64,000 bases of DNA from Arthrobacter cheniae (lineage in GTDB: Bacteria; Actinomycetota; Actinomycetes; Actinomycetales; Micrococcaceae): the NCBI RefSeq assembly GCF_003602275.1, contig NZ_QZVT01000002.1:62001-126000 (forward strand), in the 5' to 3' direction. Position numbers and translations under genes: made by a program. Under the pieces are notes generated by a model, which did no database searches, was not told where the DNA came from, and saw nothing but the letters and a program-made list of their open reading frames with translations. Positions within the stretch are counted from its first letter, which is position 1, and each line of letters starts with the position of its first letter. This document shows positions 4,442-15,316 of the stretch, piece by piece.

Positions 4442-4753
4442 CCACAGCACGTGATCGCCACGATCGGCGCTAGGACCTCGAGGGCTGCAGGCGAATCAGC
4501 AGAAGGATGGCCTCGTGCCGAATTACCACGGGGCTCCCATTCGCGTTTTGTGCGACGGCGTCCTACAGGACCTCAAGGTCGCTCCGGCACAGTGTGGAGT
4601 CAATCAACAGAGCCTCACCGACCACACCTCGGACGTAGGCACAGGGTAGGCGCGTGTGTGCTTCGTAGCGGTGAGTCGAACCCAGCGGGTGGTGCCACCT
4701 GCATCCTCAGTGGCTTGCGGGCGTTGCTGGGCATGGGGAGGTACTGTCGCTCA
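4442..4753. other. Intergenic stretch at the edge of the accessory region
   Basis: These 312 bases separate the hydrolase gene from the 3' end of the glycan operon. I see no convincing gene, terminator or RNA gene. On the minus strand, 4673-4684 reads TGGGTTCGACTC, which resembles a tRNA T-loop, but no cloverleaf can be built around it. Confidence 0.5.
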
Positions 4754-5914
4754 CTATGGCCGGGATGGGCTGACGGTTTCCAGGGCGAGCCGGGTAGGGA
4801 TTGGATCTGCAGGTATTACATCGTCGGGGAGTGGCTTGATTCTTGGCCGTGCAAGGTAAACCACCTTGGTGTGGAACAGATATCTCAGCCCGAAGGCAGC
4901 TGCGAGGGTTCCTGCTTGCGCTAGCACGCTGTTGATGAGGAGCATTTCTACGAGAAGCACCAGGACGGGTAAGCGGAGTAGTGCTTCGGCGTTGTTGAAT
5001 CCTACGGATTGCAGGAATCGTTTGTGGGTGCTGGCAGCCCTGTGAAGTGCCCCGTTGAAGACCAGCTTCTCCTGCATGAGGAAGTTCGACAGGATGGTGA
5101 TTTCGGCTGCTGCGATAGCCGCTACGACGTAGTGGACATCGAGGAACAGCAGTGCGGTCATGATCAACAGATTCAGGAGGGTACCGATGGCTCCGACGAC
5201 GGCGAAGAGACCGATGCGTCCCATTCGGAGTTCTCCTACTTGTCGGATGAAGTGCAGGCCCTGACCTATGGAGGCTTTCGATGTTCCCGCAGAGCGGCGC
5301 CCAAAAATGAAGGGCACCTCAACAATCTTCAAGCGTTGCCTGGAAAGAATTTCCAACAGGATCTTGAAGCCGCTGGGTTGAAGTGCTGTCATGTCGATGC
5401 TGCTTTTTCGTATTGCGAAGAACCCGGTCATTGGATCGGAGCAATCTTTGAGCCGGACCGGGAATAGGGAACGGGTTACCAGGGTTGCTGACGCCGACAC
5501 CATGCGGCGGTAGGTTCCGGAGAGTCCTGCGTTGCTGCCTCCTTCCCCGCAGTATCGGGAGGCAAGTGCGACATCGCTGGCCGTACTCTCCAGCTGGGAC
5601 AGCAGTACCGGAATCATTTCAGGTGGGTGTTGAAGATCACCGTCCATAACCAGGCAGTATTCTGCGTCACTGGCGGTGATACCTTCGATAACCGCTCCAC
5701 TCAGACCGCCGGAGGGGTGATCGCGGTGGATCATACGAACCGGGAGGGTCGAGTTCACTGCTGCGTGCTGGATAGTTGCGGGGGTTGAGTCGGTGGAATC
5801 ATCAACGAAAATAAGTTCAGCTTCTATGCCTAGGCAGGCTGTCGTGGTTCGCTGAACAAGTTCTTGGATATTCGGGGCTTCATTAAACGTCGGCACGATC
5901 ACTGATAGCTTCAT
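4754..5914 (-). CDS. Polyprenyl-phosphate sugar synthase: GT2 domain fused to GtrA
   Basis: This two-domain protein has 386 residues. Residues 1 to about 230 form a GT2 domain of the dolichol-phosphate mannose synthase (Dpm1/ArnC) type, with VIVPTFNEAPN at the N-terminus, FVDDSTDST and the metal-binding MDGDLQHPPE. The rest is a four-helix GtrA domain (about 232-360, with SNFLMQEKLVFN). Such fusions are thought to charge polyprenyl phosphate with a hexose in the cytosol and help move it across the membrane. The start overlaps the stop of the GT-C gene upstream by 4 nt (ATGA), so the two are probably translationally coupled; the GT-C enzyme would then use the lipid-linked sugar outside. It is the last gene of the operon. 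The sugar is unknown. Confidence 0.92.
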   Translation of the reverse strand: MKLSVIVPTFNEAPNIQELVQRTTTACLGIEAELIFVDDSTDSTPATIQHAAVNSTLPVRMIHRDHPSGGLSGAVIEGITASDAEYCLVMDGDLQHPPEMIPVLLSQLESTASDVALASRYCGEGGSNAGLSGTYRRMVSASATLVTRSLFPVRLKDCSDPMTGFFAIRKSSIDMTALQPSGFKILLEILSRQRLKIVEVPFIFGRRSAGTSKASIGQGLHFIRQVGELRMGRIGLFAVVGAIGTLLNLLIMTALLFLDVHYVVAAIAAAEITILSNFLMQEKLVFNGALHRAASTHKRFLQSVGFNNAEALLRLPVLVLLVEMLLINSVLAQAGTLAAAFGLRYLFHTKVVYLARPRIKPLPDDVIPADPIPTRLALETVSPSRP

Positions 5915-7536
5915 GGCGTTCCCCTGACGGCCAGTTCTTCAAGCGGCACTGTCATTTTGTTGATGCTCCACTCTCCGAAGGTTTTCACGGGTACTGAGTT
6001 CTCCAGCACTTTGCCCGTACGGGTAAGACCCAGGTTTTCGATATTGGCCAGGACCGTGGGACCCACCACGATGTAATCCACATCCCGCCAGCTTCCGGGA
6101 TGTATTTGATCGAATTGAGCATCAAGGTCTGGTTTCTCGACGGCAATCATGCTCCAGGGGTCATCCCAACCGCTCGAGTTCAGGTCATGCCACATCGAGT
6201 AAGGAGCGAGCACGACGTCCTCGCGGGACACATTGTCCTGAACCCACGTCATGGTGTTCTTCCAGTCGGTGTTGGTTTCGGCCGTCAGGAGTTCGCGGTC
6301 CTGTTCAAACCACTGCGGCATGGACATCAGGACCAGGGATCCACCGAGTGCTACCACGAACGATCCGCGGAGGGGATTCTTGAGCCCAGCATGGTGCCGC
6401 CATAGCTTCTCAGTACCGCTCCAGGCGATGTCGACGCCGACGCCGACGGCGAGGGCGAGGAACGGGATGACGGCGATGATGTACATGGCGGGCAGGTACC
6501 CCTGCCCGAGAACGATCGGTAACGCGAAGAGTGCGACAGCCAGGGTGATGGCTCGAGAGTTGCGACGAAACAAGCAGACAAGTGCTGCGATAAGGCCCGC
6601 CGTGATGAGGTACTTGTCGAAGTAGAGCCAGCCGGTCAATAGTTCCGCCCGGCTCGAGCCGGTCTCGAAGATGGTCCCCGATCCCGATCGCTTAAGGAAT
6701 TGGAAGGTCAGCGCTTCCTGAAGGGACACGTGGTCGGGCCCGGCAAGGAGTTCGTTGCGTAGCAGTGCAGCCAGTGGATAGAACGCAAGGACCAGCGCAC
6801 CGACGGCGAGGAATCCCACGACCGAGAACGCCCTGTTACTCCAACGGGGGCGGTTGATGAGGGTCAGCAACAGGGCGGGCCCGAAGATGGCCAGTGTTTC
6901 CTTGGACAGAACGGCGATGGCGAAGCATGTGCCCGCGAAGACGTGGTGTGCCAGCGCGTGGCGTGAACTCAGCGCTAGGTAGAACGCGAGCAGGACCCAA
7001 GGGACAGCGACGTTATCGAGATAAACCTGCCGGCCCAGAACCAGGGACAGCGGGGAGAGGATGAAAACAACTGTTGTCAGCGCGGCGAAGGGAATACGGA
7101 CGGTGAGGCGGCGCGCCAGCATGTAGAGGAGGATCGCGCTGGAAACAAAGAACGCGGCGATGACGTACCGGGTGGCGCCGATCGCGGTGCCATCTCCAAG
7201 GTTGAACAGCATTGGGATCCAGTTCAGGGCCGCGATCTGAATCCATCCAAGCGGCGGATGGTCGTACCAGTAGGTGTAGGGGGCCAGTGTGCCCTTGTGG
7301 ACGGAAAAAGCCTGCGCCGTGTAGGTTCCCTCGTCGTCCTGGTAGCTGGGGGCGCCGGTGAGATTCCACAGGCTGAAGACCACGGCCATGATGAACAGCG
7401 CTGCCATGACAAGGCGGTCCTGGCGGGACAGGCGTCTGAGCGTGAATGAGTGGCGGGCGTCTAACGGAGCTTTGTGTGCGGGTCTGATTCCCTGATCGGG
7501 AGGCCGAACAGGGGGTCGAAGTTCCAGCAGTGCCAT
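5911..7536 (-). CDS. GT39-like (GT-C fold) membrane glycosyltransferase
   Basis: This 541-residue polytopic protein belongs to the ArnT/protein O-mannosyltransferase superfamily. It has a cytosolic N-terminus, a first membrane helix near residues 43-60, and then the extracytoplasmic acidic motif YQDDEGTYTAQAF (Asp67, Asp68, Glu69), typical of GT-C active sites. YWYDHPPLGW follows, then about ten further hydrophobic segments and a soluble C-terminal part of about 130 residues. Enzymes of this fold take a sugar from a polyprenyl-phosphate donor and add it to an acceptor outside the membrane. The donor would be made by the overlapping downstream GT2-GtrA gene. The acceptor (glycan, lipid or protein) is unknown. 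Confidence 0.88.
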   Translation of the reverse strand: MALLELRPPVRPPDQGIRPAHKAPLDARHSFTLRRLSRQDRLVMAALFIMAVVFSLWNLTGAPSYQDDEGTYTAQAFSVHKGTLAPYTYWYDHPPLGWIQIAALNWIPMLFNLGDGTAIGATRYVIAAFFVSSAILLYMLARRLTVRIPFAALTTVVFILSPLSLVLGRQVYLDNVAVPWVLLAFYLALSSRHALAHHVFAGTCFAIAVLSKETLAIFGPALLLTLINRPRWSNRAFSVVGFLAVGALVLAFYPLAALLRNELLAGPDHVSLQEALTFQFLKRSGSGTIFETGSSRAELLTGWLYFDKYLITAGLIAALVCLFRRNSRAITLAVALFALPIVLGQGYLPAMYIIAVIPFLALAVGVGVDIAWSGTEKLWRHHAGLKNPLRGSFVVALGGSLVLMSMPQWFEQDRELLTAETNTDWKNTMTWVQDNVSREDVVLAPYSMWHDLNSSGWDDPWSMIAVEKPDLDAQFDQIHPGSWRDVDYIVVGPTVLANIENLGLTRTGKVLENSVPVKTFGEWSINKMTVPLEELAVRGTP

Positions 7537-7608
7537 GGGTTATCTCCTGAGGGTGCGCCCAACGGACCGTGGTCCGAGAAGGGCGGAAGAGTGCATTGGA
7601 TGGTGAGG

Positions 7609-8892
7609 TCAGGACTGCGCGACGGCGGCCTGTTCGATATAGACGAGGTGCGAGCCTGCGTGGCTGGTTTTTTCCCATCTGAAATCTCCGCGCTGAAACT
7701 TCACCAATGCGCGCAGTGCAGAGTAGGCCAGGATCATTTGGTAGAACGGGGTGCCGACGATGAGTCGGAAATAGTCATAGGAGGACAGCTCGAAGCGGTG
7801 GTCCCGGCCGAATTCGCGAAGCATGCACAGGTCGAAGGCGATGGTGGCGAATGTGGGAATGAGGGGCAGGAACGCTATCAAGGTGACAATGAGCGGAAAA
7901 TTTCCCCAGACGGCGGCGATGATCGCGACAGGGATGCATACACCGGCGAAGGCCATGAAGTGCTGTTGCATCAGAGTCCACCAGGCGATCAGACGCATAC
8001 GCCGGGTCGGCAAGGCTTTCCAATCGCCTTTGGCGAAGACCTGCATGAATCCCAGGGACCACCGCGTGCGTTGCCGGATGAGGGTGCCCACCGAATCGGG
8101 GGTCTCTTCGCGGGTCACCAGTTCTGGTGAGTAGGCGACGACGATGCGTCTACCGAGGGTGGACAGCCTGACCCCTAGGTCGCAGTCCTCAGCCAAGCAG
8201 GAACCATCCCACCCACCGACCGCGTTGAGGAGTTCACGTTTGATGAAGACAGTGTTACCGCCCAGCGGGATGAAGCCCTGCCGGGAGTGGGCATGCAGCC
8301 TGGACCGGAACCAGGTGAAGTATTCAAGACAGTTGCGCAGCGAGTACCACGTGTCGCGGTAGTTGATCAGTTGCACTGCGCCCTGCACGACGTCGGCATT
8401 CCGGGTCATGAAGACACTGTCGATATGGGACAGCAGGGCTTTCGCGGCAATCGACTCGGCGTCGAAGACGCCCACGACGTCATTGCGACAGATCTCCAGG
8501 GCACGGTTGAGCTGGAGCGGCTTGTTCTTGGTCTCGTTGCTATCCACACTGACTCGGACGAGTTCGGGGAACTCGTTGGCCAGACGGTACGCCGTCGCTA
8601 CTGTTTCGGGATCGTCGTGGCCTACTGAGATGATGACTTCTTTTTTCGAGTGGGTTTGGGTCAGGAGCGCTGCCAGGGTGGCCCTCATGACGTCCTCGCG
8701 CTCGTTTCTGCAGGGCATGATGAGTGAAAATGACACGCTTTCGGTCTCCAGCAGCCCGCTGTAGGAGGTCCGGACCTGAGTTTTCGGATCCCACCACGCA
8801 TAGGTGTTGAGGTAGAGCGTGGACGAGGCGATGGCGAACAACGCAAGGGCAACGACGACGACGACTGTGCTTGCCAGGACGACAGAAACCAT
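7609..8892 (-). CDS. Processive GT2 glycan synthase, CslA/BcsA-like
   Basis: This 427-residue membrane glycosyltransferase has one N-terminal helix (about residues 3-25), a cytosolic GT2 domain and three to four C-terminal helices (about 305-395). The catalytic set of processive beta-glycan synthases is visible: Asp93/Asp94 region, DxD-like DAE at 144-146, AEDCD at 234-238 giving the catalytic Asp of the TED motif, and QRTRW at 274-278. No PilZ domain is present, so direct c-di-GMP binding is not indicated. It probably polymerises and extrudes a beta-linked glycan from UDP-sugar (cellulose-, hyaluronan- or chitin-like). The ATG at 8892 starts just before the first helix; the longer open frame upstream overlaps the excalibur gene and is unlikely. 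Its place near the oxidase gene mirrors cslA-glxA. Confidence 0.9.
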   Translation of the reverse strand: MVSVVLASTVVVVVALALFAIASSTLYLNTYAWWDPKTQVRTSYSGLLETESVSFSLIMPCRNEREDVMRATLAALLTQTHSKKEVIISVGHDDPETVATAYRLANEFPELVRVSVDSNETKNKPLQLNRALEICRNDVVGVFDAESIAAKALLSHIDSVFMTRNADVVQGAVQLINYRDTWYSLRNCLEYFTWFRSRLHAHSRQGFIPLGGNTVFIKRELLNAVGGWDGSCLAEDCDLGVRLSTLGRRIVVAYSPELVTREETPDSVGTLIRQRTRWSLGFMQVFAKGDWKALPTRRMRLIAWWTLMQQHFMAFAGVCIPVAIIAAVWGNFPLIVTLIAFLPLIPTFATIAFDLCMLREFGRDHRFELSSYDYFRLIVGTPFYQMILAYSALRALVKFQRGDFRWEKTSHAGSHLVYIEQAAVAQS

Positions 8893-8942
8893 TTGTGTAC
8901 TCCGATGAGAAGATTGGGACGCGCAGTGGGCAGGAGTAGCGG

Positions 8943-9608
8943 TTAGTCGTTGATGCCGCAGGCGGTTCCGTCGCCGTTGGTATCCAGGCGTTGCGGGTCG
9001 ACCCCTGCTTGGCGGAGCGGAAGGCCCTCGGCGAAGTAGGTGCGAGCCTCCCTGCAGGACCAGGAGTGCGGCATCGTTGCCGGATCCTGGCCGGCTTCCT
9101 TCATGTGCTTGAGGTGTGCGCCCATGCTGGGTGGAACCCCGGGAAGGCATTGGCCATCAGCGCCGTACTCGACCAGGCAGCCACCCAAACCTTCGGACAC
9201 GTCCGTCAGCACCTGCTGCGGGTCGACCGGCCCGCGCTCGGTGAGCCCTGACGCACGATCGGGCCGGTTCCCTGTTTCCTTACCGTTGCTGGCTCTACCA
9301 TCAGTCGCCTCTGCTCCTGCGTCAGCGAGGGACTTTTCAGGCTGACCCCCGAGGATGACCGCCGGATTTCGCTTGTCCTTGGCCAGCGCCTGACCGGAAG
9401 GGGTCTTGCCAGGATTTCCTGCCTGCGGTGCCATGGCGGCGCTGCCTGCCGCTGCGGGAGCATCGATGGTCTGTACCGTCGAGATCCCTGCCCCAACGAT
9501 CGCTACCGCTGTGGCTGCCCCTGCAAGAGAGAGCAACGGGATCCACCGTTTCTTCTCGCGGTCCCCTCTTAGATCTGGTGATGTCTTAGCGATGCGTGTT
9601 CGTTTCAT
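8943..9608 (-). CDS. Membrane-anchored excalibur-domain protein
   Basis: This 221-residue protein has a basic N-terminus, one hydrophobic segment near residues 22-45 (signal anchor), and a low-complexity Ala/Gly/Pro/Lys linker of about 80 residues. A C-terminal domain follows, with Cys residues in LGGCLVEYGADGQCLPG, SWSCREAR and the terminal excalibur motif DTNGDGTACG. Excalibur is a small extracellular calcium-binding module. The ATG at 9608 overlaps the stop of the oxidase gene (ATGA), so coupled translation is likely. A role as a Ca-dependent scaffold or assembly factor at the cell surface is inferred only from its position between oxidase and synthase. Confidence 0.82.
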   Translation of the reverse strand: MKRTRIAKTSPDLRGDREKKRWIPLLSLAGAATAVAIVGAGISTVQTIDAPAAAGSAAMAPQAGNPGKTPSGQALAKDKRNPAVILGGQPEKSLADAGAEATDGRASNGKETGNRPDRASGLTERGPVDPQQVLTDVSEGLGGCLVEYGADGQCLPGVPPSMGAHLKHMKEAGQDPATMPHSWSCREARTYFAEGLPLRQAGVDPQRLDTNGDGTACGIND

Positions 9609-12133
9609 GAGATCCATACCCACTTTGCGATGCTCGGGACGCCATTGGTGTCAAGGACCGAGAGCATGTACGGCCCCGGTGGAAGAAGGTTCGGGTTGAC
9701 GGGTATTCGCGCCGTGCGCGCGTTTCCACTTCCCATCAGAGGAAGATCGACCAGGCGTGCGTTGGTGTCGGTCTGGTGAGTGGCCGACATTGGCGCGATG
9801 AGTGAGGCCGAGGCGACAGTGCCGGTGACACCGAGTGCGATGTTTTGCCCGTACGTCCCCTGGGCGGGGGCACTGGTCACAGTGGGCCGTGTCCCCTTGA
9901 AGAGGTACGGCGGGCTGTAGACGGAGATTCGCAGGTCAAAGGAGTTATCGGCCGGGTTGGACCCCAGAACCGCGACCTTGCCGTTGGGTAGGAGGATCGA
10001 CGAGGAGTGATAGTTCCGCCCCACCGGATCGGCAGCGACGGACTGCCAGCTGTTGGTGCCCGGTTTGTAGATGGCCGCTGACTGCACGTTCTCCGCACGG
10101 TTTTGTTTCGCACCGTTCGCCGCCAGGACTGTCCGGTCGGGGAGGTTGACGAGATTTACATAGGCTTTGCCGGCGCCGGGCAGGTCAGGTCCTGGGACGT
10201 AGGCGGGAACGGGCCGGTTGAGGTCGATGATGTCGACGAGGTTGATCGCCGGCGTATTCCCATCGGTATTGCCGCCGCCGACGATCATCAGTTTCTGGTC
10301 CTGGGCGGGGCCGACGAAAACCGAGCCGGCCTGGTCGCGCATGTCCTTCTGCCGCAAGCCCGGTATGTCCCAGATTTTGGCGGTCTCCCAGTCATAAAGG
10401 CTTGCACCGGTTCCGGGTAAACCGTTTCCGAAGGTGTGAGCTCCGGTGTAGAACATCTTTCCGTCATCCAGGAGGAACATGTGCGGATAGGTGCCCCAGA
10501 AGCTATAGGTTTGCGGCACTTGATTCTGCGGCAACCAGCTCTTTGTCTTGCTCGAGAACATTTCGGTAAGGACGGTTCCCTCGGCGTTCTCGTTAAGTCC
10601 GCCGGCTGACCAGATATCACCGTTTCCGAGCTTGGTCAGTGAGGGGTACCAGTGTGCTCCGGTCATGTCTGCCAGTTGGTGGAAGGTGTCATCGGCCGGG
10701 TCGAAGTAGTAACTTCTATCTGAACCTTTGAAAGTATTCGGGCCCTGATCCTCGGCGGGAAATGCTTCGGTACCGCCGGCCAGGAGAACCTTGCCGTCTG
10801 GCAGAGTGACATGACCGGCGCAGAACATGTCGTAGGGAACCGGGATCTCCTTGAATGCGTTGGCTTCCGGCGTCCAGATGACCGCACGGAACTGGCCGGC
10901 AGCGAATTTTGCTCCGTCGTTTCCCGAACCGGCGATGAGCAGCAGCCGCCCATCGGTCAGCAGCGTTGAGTGGATCGCACGGATCGGCAGCTGCGTTGTG
11001 AGGACATCCCAGGAGCCCTCCAGCTCCGCTCCTCCCGCCGGCGGGACGACTTCAGCCCGAGGTTTCTTCATCGAGTAATTCGTGGTGTTCAGGGTTCCGT
11101 TGCCGCCGATCGATAAACCGAAGGATATTCGGTCCACACCGGCTGGAATCAGGGGTGTGCGGGCCGTAGCGGTGGTCCAGTTGGCGACAGCGGGCAGCGC
11201 CTTGAGGTCGGTCCAGTACTGCCACCCGTTGATGGTGTGGGTGAAGACGCTGAAACCCGTCAGCCCCGTCGCGGTGGTTCTGTAGTCCACAGAAAGGTCG
11301 TACTGTTGGCCCGCTGCCACCGTGGGGGCACAACCAGCGCCTTCGGACTGCAGCAATTTCGCGTCTCCCGACACGTGTCCGCTTATCGTGAACTGGAAAG
11401 ACCTGGCACCAGCCGGAGAATTCGCCGGAACATCGGTAGAAACGAGGGAGCTTGCCTGACGTTGTCCCCATCCAGCTACCTGATGACATGCTGGGATGTT
11501 GGCGCCTCCGGCCAGACTTCCATTCACGATGAGCTCGTCAGTCACCGGTGGCGGATCGATTACCTGCCGGAAAGAATAATCGTCCGTGGTCAGTGATCCA
11601 TTGGCGCTTAGTGAAAGCCCGAAGATGACCTGGTCCGTTCCCTCCGGGATAACCGGAGTAGGGGCCTGGGCTAGAGTCCACCCGGTCGCGGCAGGGACTT
11701 GCTCAACGTTGCCCCAGTAGCTCCAGCCCTGCGCGGTGTGCCGGAACATCGTGAGCGACACTGGCGCTGACGACTTGTACCAAACCTGCATGTCGTAGGT
11801 GAGGCCGGCGGTTACCTTCGGGGCGCATTGAGCGTTCTCGGCCTGGAGGAGCTTCCGGTCCCCTGCCTGATAACCCTGGATGCTCAACGAAACGGAGCGG
11901 CCACCGGCGCGTCCGGGCTGGAACGTCCAAGCAGCTTCTGTTCCCCAACCTGATCGTGAGAAGCAGGAAGGATCGTTGGTGCCTTGCTCCAGAGAAGGAT
12001 TGACGACCAGGTTGTCGCCCGCTGCAGCGCGAGCCGGTGAATCCGCAGCAGAGATGACCACGAAGAAACTGGCGATAAGGGCGCAGACGAGAGCAACGAA
12101 AGCGGATGGACGCCGACCTGCCAGCGGCTTCAC
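9605..12133 (-). CDS. Secreted copper-radical oxidase, galactose oxidase/GlxA-like, with two carbohydrate-binding repeats
   Basis: This 842-residue exported oxidase has a signal peptide (about residues 1-37, ending near ARAAAG). Two homologous repeats of about 155 residues follow (40-195 and 198-356). Each starts with a VNPSL/VNGSL strand and ends in GLSL/GLSI-type strands, like CBM4-type jelly rolls. A seven-bladed kelch propeller (about 370-735) and a DUF1929 immunoglobulin-like domain (745-842) complete it. All copper and radical residues of the AA5 family can be placed: Cys438 (DMFCAGH), Tyr496 (AHWYPS), Tyr708-His709 (NYHSS) and His786 (SATHQTDT). It should oxidise primary alcohols of a glycan and give H2O2. 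The GTG start overlaps a short upstream frame (GTGA). Confidence 0.93.
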   Translation of the reverse strand: MKPLAGRRPSAFVALVCALIASFFVVISAADSPARAAAGDNLVVNPSLEQGTNDPSCFSRSGWGTEAAWTFQPGRAGGRSVSLSIQGYQAGDRKLLQAENAQCAPKVTAGLTYDMQVWYKSSAPVSLTMFRHTAQGWSYWGNVEQVPAATGWTLAQAPTPVIPEGTDQVIFGLSLSANGSLTTDDYSFRQVIDPPPVTDELIVNGSLAGGANIPACHQVAGWGQRQASSLVSTDVPANSPAGARSFQFTISGHVSGDAKLLQSEGAGCAPTVAAGQQYDLSVDYRTTATGLTGFSVFTHTINGWQYWTDLKALPAVANWTTATARTPLIPAGVDRISFGLSIGGNGTLNTTNYSMKKPRAEVVPPAGGAELEGSWDVLTTQLPIRAIHSTLLTDGRLLLIAGSGNDGAKFAAGQFRAVIWTPEANAFKEIPVPYDMFCAGHVTLPDGKVLLAGGTEAFPAEDQGPNTFKGSDRSYYFDPADDTFHQLADMTGAHWYPSLTKLGNGDIWSAGGLNENAEGTVLTEMFSSKTKSWLPQNQVPQTYSFWGTYPHMFLLDDGKMFYTGAHTFGNGLPGTGASLYDWETAKIWDIPGLRQKDMRDQAGSVFVGPAQDQKLMIVGGGNTDGNTPAINLVDIIDLNRPVPAYVPGPDLPGAGKAYVNLVNLPDRTVLAANGAKQNRAENVQSAAIYKPGTNSWQSVAADPVGRNYHSSSILLPNGKVAVLGSNPADNSFDLRISVYSPPYLFKGTRPTVTSAPAQGTYGQNIALGVTGTVASASLIAPMSATHQTDTNARLVDLPLMGSGNARTARIPVNPNLLPPGPYMLSVLDTNGVPSIAKWVWIS

Positions 12134-12237
12134 GTCCAGCCACCGCCCGAGGAAGCTCGTGGCCTACCGTAAGGCGGACGTGACAGCAAGAAGCGCCTTA
12201 CTGGCATCATCGATAACAGTCTTCGAACCACCAGCAT
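12130..12237 (-). CDS. 35-residue upstream ORF coupled to the oxidase gene
   Basis: An ATG at 12237 follows a strong ribosome-binding site (GGAGG, 4-nt spacing) and opens a 35-codon frame. The stop codon overlaps the GTG start of the oxidase gene (GTGA). The peptide begins MLVVRRLLSMMPVRR and is basic, hydrophobic and Arg-rich; I do not recognise it. Because the oxidase GTG has only a weak ribosome-binding site of its own, the likely role is translational coupling, but a functional small membrane protein is possible. Confidence 0.45.
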   Translation of the reverse strand: MLVVRRLLSMMPVRRFLLSRPPYGRPRASSGGGWT

Positions 12238-12761
12238 GAGACCTCCGTTAGGGGACGCACTACCCGTGAGAGTGCGGGCGAAAGAAACTTGATCGGTTTG
12301 TACGGCTTCCAGGAAAGCCATCCAGGCGCATATAAGCCGCTAGGAAGTTGTAACCTCGAGCCCTTAGCGACGAGGGGATTGCGGGAATGCAATCCGGACG
12401 TCACCGGGAGATTAACTTCAGAACTCCGGACAAATGAGGATCCCTGTCGGTGCAGCAAGCAAAAGCCTCAAGTTCGAGCGGATTGCACCTCGATCAATGT
12501 GCAGTTGGCATCATCCGATCAAGATCCCAAATCAGAGAATATGAGCAACGAAAGACACCGGCCCGAGTAATGCTTACCTGAATTCACAGCCGAAATACGC
12601 GGCTGCGGTACTTGACCAGGGAAGGCCGAATACTTGTAAACACCACAATGTGGAATTGTGGGTTAACAATGAGTGAACTAATTACTCCTAGGATTAACAC
12701 CAGTGAAATAGCTACTGTGGAATGCCGGCATCCGTAAATAAGACGAACTCGCGTCTCAGGT
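12238..12761. other. Low-GC upstream region of the glycan operon
   Basis: About 520 bases without a convincing gene, clearly richer in A and T than the surroundings, especially 12500-12720. It must hold the promoter of the minus-strand glycan operon. I found an interrupted palindrome at 12643-12661 but no confident -35/-10 pair. Confidence 0.5.
12643..12661. promoter_or_regulatory. Inverted repeat, possible operator of the glycan operon
   Basis: The sequence is CCACAAT, five bases, ATTGTGG: two perfect 7-bp arms in the AT-rich region about 400 bp upstream of the 35-codon ORF. The size suits a dimeric repressor site, but no regulator gene lies next to it. Confidence 0.3.
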
Positions 12762-13137
12762 TCGCGGGCCGGGGACATTCTCGTCGTGACGATGCTCGAC
12801 CGGTTGGGCCGCTCGGTTCGGAACCTCGAGGAATTCGTCGACGGACTTCAGAAGTAGAGAGTCGGCCCGAGGGCGCTCACCAGGGCATCGCCACGACAGC
12901 CCGGCGGGCGCTAGGTCTTCCACATGCTCTCCGTGATCGCGGACTCAGCCCGCGATCTCATTGTTGACTGCGCGAAGGACGGTCTTTCTGCAGCCAAAAT
13001 TCGCGGCCCAAGGGTGAAGGCTGGCTCGGGATGACTCGGACGAGATCATTGCAAGCAGGCCGATGTACGACGAAAGGAGGCACCCGGCTGCTGCTCTTCC
13101 AGTGATACGGCGTCGACTCATGAAGCGTGATCCGTGA
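12762..13137 (+). pseudogene. Decayed serine recombinase (resolvase/invertase) fragment
   Basis: In one frame from 12762, the translation gives RAGDILVVTMLDRLGRSVRN, the conserved C-terminal part of the catalytic domain of Tn3-type resolvases. The frame continues through an in-frame TAG (12855-12857), a second TAG (12912-12914), and then VFHMLSVIAD and DLIVDCAKDGLSAAKIRG, the helix E region. A +1 frameshift near 13033 leads to MYDERRHPAAALPVIRRR, which matches the helix-turn-helix linker and domain up to the TGA at 13135. The N-terminal third with the catalytic Ser is not seen. Two stops, one frameshift and the missing 5' part make it clearly nonfunctional. It marks an old mobile element next to the glycan operon. 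Confidence 0.85.
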
Positions 13138-13478
13138 GGCGTGTACTCGAGTCCGCGGTGGGCGTCCTGCGGGCAGTAGTGACGACCGACATTGGCGGTG
13201 CGGGCCCGGTACCAACAGCCCTCGGGCAAGGCCTGCCTTCTTCGGCACGTTTCGTGGCGGCCCGGCAGATACAGCACTGCGCCAGGGCCGGATCATCCAA
13301 GGTGTTGCCCTGGTTGATCAAAGCGGGTGAGCCCGTCGTACTGAGCGTGCAGGTGAGCGTCGGTGTTGTTCATGAAGGGTCGGACATGACGCTGCCCCGT
13401 TGAAGAGGGCAGAGACCGTCTCGTTGCAAGGTACAACCCCGGGCAAAAATCTTTTCCCACTGAACTATCGAGGGACCA

Positions 13479-13484
13479 TATAAT
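13479..13484 (+). promoter_or_regulatory. -10 box TATAAT of the STAS-like gene
   Basis: This is a perfect TATAAT in an AT-rich patch about 55 nt upstream of the ATG at 13538. No good -35 box is found at 16-18 bp, so dependence on an activator or an alternative sigma factor cannot be excluded. Confidence 0.45.
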
Positions 13485-13518
13485 TTTTCTGGTCCTGCAG
13501 GGCGGCCGCCAGAAAATT
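13482..13518 (+). repeat. Inverted repeat in the STAS gene leader
   Basis: Arms 13482-13492 (AATTTTTCTGG) and 13509-13518 (CCAGAAAATT) pair over 10 bp with one bulged T and a GC-rich loop of 16 nt. The left arm overlaps the -10 box, so this could be an operator or a 5'-UTR hairpin. Confidence 0.4.
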
Positions 13519-13537
13519 CTAGCCGCGGGGCACGCTT

Positions 13538-13882
13538 ATGAATTACAAACTTCGAGCTCTCATCAAGATCGACCTCGAGGACAGATCTGCTGGCATTCAT
13601 GTCACGGGATGCTTCACATCAACCAACTACCGGGCTCTTGTACCGGTAATCAGGCGTGCATACGCCCTACCAGGTCACCCCGAGGTAACGGTCGATATCT
13701 CTCGGGCCAAACACGTGGACCCGAGCGCCGCCGCCCTGCTTGAAGCCGTCTGCGCAGCACTATCCTTGCCCAGCCCGACCAGGGTCATACGCATCATCAA
13801 GTCCGAGCACATGAATCAAAGTGCAAGCGTTGCCGGACTGGTCCCAGGCAATTCGGCCTCGGTCATGTCACAGGTGTCCTAG
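13538..13882 (+). CDS. Small STAS-like protein
   Basis: This 114-residue soluble protein has a pattern that fits a single STAS domain (anti-sigma factor antagonist fold). It starts with strands ending in GIHVTGCFTSTNYRALVPVI. The central segment VTVDISRAKHVDPSAAALLE resembles the loop and helix that carry the regulatory Ser/Thr in SpoIIAA-type proteins; here DPSAA would supply the Ser. No anti-sigma kinase or sigma factor gene is adjacent. It stands alone in the accessory stretch with its own promoter-like sequence. The fold assignment rests on this one motif and is tentative. Confidence 0.6.
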   Translation: MNYKLRALIKIDLEDRSAGIHVTGCFTSTNYRALVPVIRRAYALPGHPEVTVDISRAKHVDPSAAALLEAVCAALSLPSPTRVIRIIKSEHMNQSASVAGLVPGNSASVMSQVS

Positions 13883-14265
13883 CTCCACCGCCATTGTTGT
13901 TCTTGCCGAGGGACCGCGCACCTGCGAACCAGCGTCACAGTATCAGCTGCAGCCCAACGGGGTAATGATGATTCACGTATGAGCGAAATAACCAGTGGAA
14001 ATACTCCGGCCTATTTGTGTGCAGACACGGGACACATCGATTTATTCGAAGAACGGATTCCCGCCCGGCACTGTTCACCACTCCCCCGCCGGCCAAGAAA
14101 TGACCACTATTCGGCGACCAGCCGCTGACCGACATAAGCTGCTGCTGCATATCGGCGTGGCGGCATCGACCCGATAGCAGGCTATTGCACTCAAGCGCCG
14201 GCAAGCAGATCCTCTACCGGCACACCGCTTACCGCAGGCGCGTGAGAGTGTCCCTCTCGATGCAA
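13883..14265. other. Intergenic stretch with one 49-codon open frame
   Basis: These 383 bases hold no recognisable gene. A 49-codon frame on the plus strand (13979-14128, starting MSEITSGNTPAYLC) has no clear ribosome-binding site and no family I know. I do not call it as a gene. Confidence 0.4.
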
Positions 14266-14664
14266 TCAGGTGCCCGAGGGCTGACCGAAGGTGGTCGGGT
14301 CTACGGGCTGTTGGTTCTTGGGCAGTTTTTCGAGGACGAGGAGGTATGACTCGGTCACGAGGTCTTCGACGAGCGTGGCTTCTATCCGGCCGTTGGGATG
14401 GAGGGTGATCCAGTGCTTCTTGTTCATGTGGTAGCCGGGTGTGATGTCGTCGTAGGCCTCGCGGAGTAGGTGCGCGTCGCCTGGGGTCGCTTTGAGGATG
14501 ACGATGGGTTCACCGGTGACCTCGGTGTGGAGCATGAATACTTTTCCACGCACCTTGTAGACGTCCCAGTCGGCACCGAAGGGGTGCGTAAGTTCGGCAC
14601 CCGGGAGCTCACGCACCCGTTCGGAGGCCCTCTGTTGCAGTTCTTTTCCTTGCATGATGAGCAC
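14266..14664 (-). CDS. MmcQ/YjbR family protein
   Basis: This 132-residue single-domain protein of the YjbR/MmcQ (CyaY-like fold) family shows the usual pattern. It has HPFGADWDVYKVRGKVFMLH near the N-terminus, ITPGYHMNKKHWITL in the middle and VTESYLLVLEKLPK at the end. Family members are often described as DNA-binding or linked to mitomycin resistance, but the biochemical role is not established. The GTG at 14664 is preferred over the ATG three codons later because GAGG lies 6 nt upstream of it. It stands alone between intergenic stretches of the accessory region. Confidence 0.88.
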   Translation of the reverse strand: MLIMQGKELQQRASERVRELPGAELTHPFGADWDVYKVRGKVFMLHTEVTGEPIVILKATPGDAHLLREAYDDITPGYHMNKKHWITLHPNGRIEATLVEDLVTESYLLVLEKLPKNQQPVDPTTFGQPSGT

Positions 14665-15106
14665 GGGGTTCCTCTGACTGATCAGGGTGTGACGACCACT
14701 TTACCGAGGCTGTGATCCTTTTCGGCGTCGTTGCCCCGCCGTCAACCGCAACGACCCATCGACGACAGCACTGCGGTCCCGCATGGAAGTGCAGGCGACA
14801 GGGTCGACAAGCGTAGTTGTGGAGGGTGGCCAAACTCCCTCGGTTACACATACGCGTCCGGGTCGAGCCAGGATGCCCTTTGATCGGTGAGGGTGTATCG
14901 CACTGGTGTGCCGCCCCGGCTCAGGACCCCGGCAGTACCGCACTGCGGGAATCATCGGCCATGGCGCGGTGCCGTCCGGGCAAGCCTCCGACCCCATGAA
15001 CCTCATACCTGAAGAATCTGATGCACCTCTTAGAACATGAATGGGCTGCTCAGGGTTCAGGCAGAGTGGTTGGTCTTCCTAAGTGGTTGAACGCCGTTGG
15101 CAGTCA
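14665..15106. other. Intergenic stretch between YjbR gene and nuclease relic
   Basis: About 440 bases without a gene I can support. Open frames here are short, and their translations show no family signature. It is probably decayed accessory DNA, given the relics on both sides. Confidence 0.45.
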
Positions 15107-15312
15107 TCAGCACCTGGGGGCGTCCTTCTCGGCCGACGGCAGGAATTCGTAGGTGTACGTCGAGACGGCCATGGGCGAGTCCGCACGTCCCAGCGCGTAC
15201 CGAACGGTGTGCTCGTTCTTGCTGCCACGGAAGGATGCCCACTGTTTCTTTGGACTGGAAGTTTGAGCTTGTCATCGAGCAGAAGGACGTCGAGGTGCAC
15301 CTGCCGGACAAG
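15107..15312 (-). pseudogene. Frameshifted C-terminal relic of a DUF1016 (YhcG-type) PDDEXK nuclease
   Basis: Three reading frames of the minus strand must be joined to recover the C-terminal part of a DUF1016 protein. VHLDVLLLDDKLKLPVQ (normally the FYV..VDDKL strand and loop) comes first, then KETVGILP, then RGSKNEHTVRYALGR and SPMAVSTYTYEFLPSAEK to the TGA at 15107-15109. DUF1016 proteins carry a PD-(D/E)XK nuclease domain and are often found near restriction-modification genes. Only about 65 codons remain and the nuclease core is mostly gone. The relic ends next to the 3' end of uppS, which gives the right border of the accessory stretch. Confidence 0.65.
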
Positions 15313-15316
15313 CCGC

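Follow-up and report, generated by a model that had tools for sequence, protein, structure and literature searches.

We analyzed a 64,000-nucleotide window of the Arthrobacter cheniae genome (contig NZ_QZVT01000002.1, positions 62,001 to 126,000), in which five genes on the minus strand encode a GlxA-like copper radical oxidase (OX), a small excalibur-like protein (EXC), a membrane glycosyltransferase of family 2 (GT2) with a processive-synthase fold (GT2P), a GT-C glycosyltransferase (GTC) and a predicted polyprenyl-phosphate sugar synthase fused to a GtrA domain (GTRA). By coordinates and Pfam matches, the five genes lie as an initial annotation of this DNA had described them (Table 1). Both of the ATGA overlaps that it reported were also found, at 5911-5914 between GTC and GTRA and at 9605-9608 between OX and EXC, the latter provided that EXC starts at the ATG at 9608, giving 221 amino acids (aa); the list of open reading frames holds an alternative start, a GTG at 9623, upstream of this ATG. 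The right end of the operon had been placed at 12237, which is beyond the OX frame, as OX starts at the GTG at 12133 and the open frame extends only about 10 codons further (852 aa).

Table 1. Features of the operon and its surroundings (window positions)
Feature	Position	Strand	Basis
OX, GlxA-like copper radical oxidase, probably secreted, 842 aa	9605-12133	-	Pfam GO-like_E_set and Kelch
Tandem N-terminal beta-sandwich domains of OX (residues 38-358), likely carbohydrate-binding	11060-12022	-	same domain on CE4 deacetylases
EXC, small protein, membrane-anchored or secreted; four conserved Cys, excalibur-like tail	8943-9608	-	conserved residues; Pfam Excalibur below cut-off
GT2P, membrane GT2 of processive-synthase fold (BcsA/hyaluronan synthase-like), ATG start, 427 aa	7609-8892	-	Pfam Glyco_tranf_2_3
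GTC, GT39/PMT_2-type GT-C glycosyltransferase, 541 aa	5911-7536	-	Pfam PMT_2 and PMT
GTRA, predicted polyprenyl-phosphate sugar synthase (GT2) fused to GtrA/DPMS membrane domain, 386 aa	4754-5914	-	Pfam Glycos_transf_2 and GtrA_DPMS_TM
Insertion of low GC that contains the operon, flanked by an alpha/beta hydrolase gene and uppS	4442-15316	.	GC step; gap in relatives

Sequence features of the encoded proteins

Inspection of the OX sequence indicates that it has the residue set of an AA5-type copper radical oxidase, and this activity is predicted. C438, W495, Y496, Y708, H709 and H786 were invariant in 29 aligned rows, window included, and align with the GlxA stretches FC-G-H, WYP, NYH and TH-D. 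We take these residues to be the Cys-Tyr cofactor pair, the axial Tyr, the two His and the stacking Trp of AA5-type enzymes, and the stacking role of W495 is supported by the W288A structure entry 5lqi. Among solved sequences GlxA was the nearest to OX (E = 5.5e-83), and it also gave the best structural alignment of the OX model (predicted local distance difference test score, pLDDT, 85; predicted template modeling score 0.61), with a template modeling (TM) score of 0.74 by target length. The 50 fold matches listed for the whole model were mostly oxidases and Kelch or Kelch-like designed proteins, and a solved galactose oxidase from Pseudarthrobacter (9g43/9g8h) was among the structural matches. 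That OX is a true galactose oxidase is less likely, because in OX a Trp of the GlxA type precedes the radical Tyr, and the aligned 9g8h lacks it. Judged by eye, OX looks secreted via a cleavable signal peptide rather than anchored by a transmembrane segment.

OX is also set apart from GlxA itself. It scored 417 bits with the GlxA model NF052501, short of the curated cut-off of 800, and a GlxA stretch of about 113 residues has no counterpart in OX. In a tree of 59 rows the OX group was separated from four GlxA rows with 97% support by the Shimodaira-Hasegawa-like approximate likelihood ratio test (SH-aLRT), and the Micrococcales, Streptomycetaceae and Actinocorallia sets each formed one group; this was a quick tree with long-branch warnings, from which loci L052, L053, L054, L085 and L031 were dropped as repeats. 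The OX of locus L042, which lies in two overlapping frames near 11500 (L042:10001-12420; possible frameshift or sequencing error), was excluded from the alignment and is absent from the tree rows. True GlxA over the cut-off (1042-1145 bits) and an OX-type oxidase were found together in 3 of the 11 genomes searched (loci L043, L046 and L048). Two Actinocorallia loci hold tandem arrays of OX-type copper radical oxidases, four at L049:9848-18828 and three at L050:5357-12148, and the L049 array is preceded by a small protein that matches no Pfam family and has, by eye, an excalibur-like tail.

The N-terminal part of OX, residues 38-358, consists of two copies of one beta-sandwich domain, for which no Pfam family scored above cut-off. 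In a count of 64 rows, in which some genomes appear twice, two copies were present in all 21 Micrococcales rows and one copy in all 19 Streptomycetaceae and all 7 Actinocorallia rows, and the domain was absent from 7 GlxA rows, from 7 other oxidases and from 3 rows of the second kit described below. A search of 245 genomes of the family detected the domain in 24 (E <= 1e-8). Where it occurs outside oxidases, it sits behind a CE4 polysaccharide deacetylase in 17 of the 18 distinct proteins judged, the 18th being a short frame; assignment to CE4 was by resemblance to the CE4 portion of a single reference protein (L016) with a confirmed Pfam match, and the count covers domain matches with a fetched locus and frames away from the locus edges. 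A GT2 gene lies beside 7 of these 18 loci, though the flank covered only about 1.5 kb, and the two of these GT2s that were scanned had PgaC/IcaA as their best curated family, below cut-off. Since the same domain sits on CE4 deacetylases, the N-terminal domain of OX most likely binds the deacetylase substrate, that is, an N-acetylamino-sugar glycan. A beta-glycan product, as initially supposed, is not borne out by these data; given the deacetylases and the domain that OX shares with them, an amino-sugar glycan is the better candidate.

The GT2P model (pLDDT 87) has the GT-A and membrane fold, with the QxxRW motif, of processive GT2s of the BcsA, hyaluronan synthase and PgaC type. Its best fold match was BcsA (TM score 0.70 by query length), followed by hyaluronan synthases and PcManGT, and D93/D94, D144xE146, E235D236 and QRTRW at 274-278 were invariant in 19 rows. 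The best curated family was PgaC/IcaA (TIGR03937; 80.2 bits, under the cut-off of 422), and cellulose synthase CelA/BcsA (TIGR03030) gave 40.7 bits, under its cut-off of 699. The earlier description of GT2P as CslA/BcsA-like thus holds for the fold and fails for the family. The CslA next to a true GlxA (L083) had CelA as best family with 91 bits, and GT2P and CslA are 21% identical over 259 aa (E = 2e-5). NF052501 describes GlxA as encoded with CslA; OX is not encoded with CslA in this sense, as GT2P differs from CslA in best family.

The two remaining glycosyltransferase genes bear out the claim that a polyprenyl-phosphate sugar synthase and a GT-C enzyme accompany the synthase, by Pfam and PDB matches and by motifs of GTC. 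Residues 1-351 of GTRA match the solved dolichol-phosphate-mannose synthase 5mlz (E = 1.7e-55). In GTC, D68E69 and D92-H93-P94-P95 are at least 95% conserved in 31 rows, as is expected of GT-C enzymes that use lipid-linked sugars. From their sequences, GTRA and GTC make up the complete three-component set of polyprenyl-phosphate-sugar GT2, GtrA domain and GT-C enzyme, for which sugar transfer to an external polymer is predicted. In EXC, C149, C159 and C190 and the tail residues D214, D218, G219 and C222 (numbered from the GTG at 9623) are at least 95% conserved in 25 aligned rows, and the match to Pfam Excalibur was slightly under the cut-off (19.2 against 22 bits).

Conservation and origin of the gene set

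The neighborhood was searched in genomes of the family, as the initial annotation had proposed, and in a class sample. With E-value limits of our choice (1e-90 for GT2P and 1e-40 for GTC), matches to both proteins fell in an identical set of 15 among the 245 family genomes, window genome included, adjacent in 14 of them and separated by a contig end in one; full-length OX was found in 9 of the 15, on the same contig as GT2P in 8. Among 394 class genomes searched (own included), 23 others had GT2P. GTC was adjacent in all 23, and OX lay in the stretch in 14 and full-length GTRA in 14. These counts, fetched with GT2P or GTC, are the unbiased ones for co-occurrence, and several genomes appear under two locus names, such as L031/L091 (same GT2P sequence) and L047/L085 (contigs of equal length). 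The 25 loci L027-L051 were fetched with OX as query and cannot tell how often the glycosyltransferases occur without it. The order OX-EXC-GT2P-GTC-GTRA was complete in 9 of these, five were Streptomycetaceae loci with GT2P and GTC (GTRA in 4 of them), and others had a GtrA-only gene (2), a detached GtrA (1), OX and EXC alone (1), cuts by contig ends (3) or different arrangements (4).

On a GT2P tree of 55 rows, 54 of them different and one (L129, at a contig end) left unclassed, the presence of OX needed 2 changes over the 54 classed rows, where shuffling gave a mean of 13.3 and 0 of 500 shuffles were as low. OX adjoins GT2P and GTC in two clades, Micrococcales and Streptomycetaceae. The co-occurrence counts and the two-change tree indicate that GT2P-GTC is the core and that OX has joined it stably in two lineages, and the recurrence of the set across genomes rules out chance neighbors. 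Two further arrangements were seen: at L089:9929-19057 (G206) OX-EXC faces GT2P-GTC-GTRA plus a second, diverged GTC (48% against 57% identity), and at L123:3357-13669 GT2P and GTC stand together without OX, with genes for a sortase (4802-5455) and a PIG-L deacetylase (12878-13669) nearby.

Two loci, L085 and L086, carry a second kit, in which an OX of 57% core identity and EXC stand with other partners. In L085 a PMT_2 GT-C enzyme with no useful similarity to GTC lies six bases from OX, and the other partners are a CE4 deacetylase lipoprotein and a non-orthologous GT2 that scores 57 bits with PgaC/IcaA, its best family. The GT2 of L086 looks similar (unscanned), and this locus also has a frame containing GtrA and a match to GH18 below cut-off. 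Because the same functional kit appears to have been rebuilt from non-orthologous glycosyltransferases, we regard it as the strongest indication that the oxidase acts together with the synthase and the lipid-linked sugar.

The initial annotation had also remarked that the Streptomyces partners of CslA-GlxA (endoglucanase, Sco-type copper chaperone, DyP peroxidase) were absent. For Sco this is right for the window operon and wrong as a general rule, since in two Streptacidiphilus loci (L044 and L045) a SCO1/SenC copper-chaperone gene lies between OX and GT2P. No endoglucanase was found among the genes of the operon; the rest of the genome was not searched for one. At L161:3311-5781 and L162:3313-5417, a SCO1/SenC relative (41-43% identical) lies beside GT2P-GTC-GTRA, with no OX in the 12 kb examined.

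The operon was probably acquired by horizontal transfer, as indicated by a drop in GC content (0.597 in the insertion against 0.677 and 0.668 in the flanks), by the intact junction in relatives and by the lack of full-length OX in other genomes of the genus. Between their matched parts, the hydrolase and uppS genes are -10 to 438 bp apart in 24 of 24 other sampled genus genomes and 10,881 bp apart here. Full-length OX was found in none of the other genus genomes of the 245-genome sample (G079 has the 57% type). The GT2P tree places the protein of Arthrobacter sp. RIT-PI-e closest to that of the window. Among the direct-repeat families listed (20 of 23), none gave convincing terminal repeats, and a pair near both edges (4498-4518 and 15278-15298; 21 nucleotides, 76% alike) was given no weight because many inner pairs were equally good. 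The rest of the insertion, 12240-15316, has no frame of at least 150 aa up to 15056; it contains a STAS-like frame (13538-13882), its match scoring below cut-off, and a YjbR gene (14266-14664).

Proposed function and alternatives

We consider it somewhat better than an even chance (roughly 0.55) that this is a horizontally acquired surface-glycan operon, whose exported amino-sugar glycan is decorated outside the cell from a lipid-linked sugar and oxidized to aldehydes. GT2P would polymerize and extrude a glycan, most likely containing an N-acetylamino sugar, and GTRA would make the polyprenyl-phosphate-linked sugar in the cytoplasm, with its GtrA domain helping to turn the sugar outward. On the outer side of the membrane GTC would then attach it to an acceptor, most likely the GT2P glycan, and OX, docked on the glycan by its N-terminal domains, would oxidize primary alcohols to aldehydes and release H2O2. 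EXC may have a helper role at the wall. The aldehydes could react with free amines, such as those of deacetylated amino sugars or proteins, and make the coat stiffer. The analysis itself establishes which genes are present and linked, that their catalytic residues are conserved, that OX shares a domain with deacetylases and that the operon lies in an insertion.

A number of points weigh against it. All GT2P family scores are far under their cut-offs (80 against 422 bits for PgaC), so the amino-sugar polymer is argued from domain sharing and neighbors, and Streptacidiphilus GT2P scored slightly better with an XrtP-associated family (83 bits) than with PgaC/IcaA (80 bits). The operon has no deacetylase, with four CE4 matches lying elsewhere in the genome, and for the copper and peroxide side DyP peroxidase had no match in the window's genome and Sco only a partial one (27 bits against a cut-off of 22.8, positions 3-67 of 134). 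Kocuria L040 has OX and EXC with no GT2P, GTC or GTRA in the 22.5 kb examined, and several relatives are without GTRA or have a GtrA-only gene. GT2P and GTC occur without OX in 15 of the 54 classed rows, from which oxidation appears optional to the core. Product, acceptor and substrate are all predicted, and so are the oxidized position, the cross-linking and the role of EXC.

It is possible, though unlikely, that the target of GTC and GTRA is some other polymer of the wall, be it teichoic acid, lipoglycan or protein, and that they merely share an operon with the synthase and oxidase. Three-component systems are known on lipoteichoic acid, wall teichoic acid and wall polysaccharides (PMC8035078, PMC7389260, PMC13390465), and the absence of GTRA from several otherwise intact loci fits such a role. 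GTC, however, keeps company with GT2P: the two mark one and the same set of 15 among the 245 family genomes, and all 23 class genomes with GT2P have GTC next to it. This favors a shared product; because the lipid-sugar genes are tied to synthase and oxidase, the acceptor of GTC is probably the synthase-made glycan. We doubt that OX serves the synthase mainly in assembly or stabilization, in the way that GlxA serves CslA, with oxidase chemistry secondary. CslA-GlxA is a binary complex and full activity requires the extracellular part of GlxA (PMC11022532), but OX has invariant catalytic residues, seems to be released from the membrane by signal-peptide cleavage, and is missing from 15 of the 54 classed GT2P rows.

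Polymerization itself would be absent if GT2P added one sugar to a lipid or oligosaccharide that GTC extended outside from the lipid-linked donor. The smaller mannosyltransferase PcManGT is among the GT2P fold matches, and a GtrA/GtrB pair is required for a glucan in Lactobacillus johnsonii (PMC7117936); the best folds are nevertheless BcsA and hyaluronan synthases, and the QxxRW motif and C-terminal helices are kept, which makes this quite improbable. Hardly credible is an OX that feeds the cell or releases H2O2 by acting on external alcohols, such as galactosides of plants or fungi: the solved Pseudarthrobacter galactose oxidase shows that such enzymes occur in the family, but OX has the GlxA-type Trp-Tyr pair missing in that enzyme and adjoins synthase genes in two clades.

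Within the surface-glycan reading, we propose tentatively, and think it on balance unlikely in this full form, that the coat is a self-hardening matrix, in which a dedicated sugar, added from the lipid carrier to an amino-sugar glycan, would be the handle, OX would convert its primary alcohol to an aldehyde and deacetylated amines on neighboring chains would condense with it. If true, a self-cross-linking glycan would be a bacterial counterpart of lysyl-oxidase chemistry on a polysaccharide.

Comparison with known systems

The conserved gene set has apparently not been described before. Among the matches listed in the open-licence PubMed Central literature (subscription papers and preprints lying outside it), no published description of such a set was found, consistent with the initial annotation, and the word oxidase does not occur in the text of the paper on gsf, a GtrA cluster of Actinoplanes (PMC13390465). 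The set bears on the question of what bacterial copper radical oxidases do in nature, as it links a related oxidase with a synthase and a pathway for decoration. The link spans two actinobacterial lineages, and the shared domain points at a glycan class, so that the set is a compact one for asking what the oxidase oxidizes and why.

Like cslA-glxA(-cslZ) of Streptomyces (PMC11022532; PMC3543389), the operon encodes a BcsA-fold GT2 with a GlxA-type copper radical oxidase, at a lower-GC locus of probable foreign origin. The product of CslA-GlxA in vitro is cellulose, and the glycan formed in vivo is unsettled (PMC11022532). Unlike GlxA, OX has one or two extra N-terminal domains and is without the stretch of about 113 residues, and the window set adds the lipid-linked-sugar route to a GT2 only 21% identical to CslA. 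The initial annotation had equated the two pairs of activities; this does not hold, as OX forms a separate clade and GT2P scores nearer to PgaC/IcaA, and identity of the two sets is ruled out by the family scores, the tree and the presence of both systems in one genome. In a domain-architecture search by Liman et al., the GlxA orthologues of actinobacteria were confined to Streptomyces (28) and Frankia (3) (PMC3543389); the OX clade adds Micrococcaceae, Microbacteriaceae, Actinocorallia and a second Streptomyces locus to this range.

The CsbB/GtcA/YfhO and GtrA/B/X systems share with the window operon a polyprenyl-phosphate-sugar GT2, a GtrA-type flippase and a GT-C transferase; here, in contrast, one protein combines GT2 and GtrA, as 5mlz does, and genes for a synthase and an oxidase go with the set. 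The poly-N-acetylglucosamine synthases PgaC/IcaA with their CE4 enzymes are similar in that theirs is the best family for GT2P and that a deacetylase stands in the second kit. The window operon differs from them in scores far below the cut-off and in having no deacetylase of its own, and it adds genes for decoration and oxidation.

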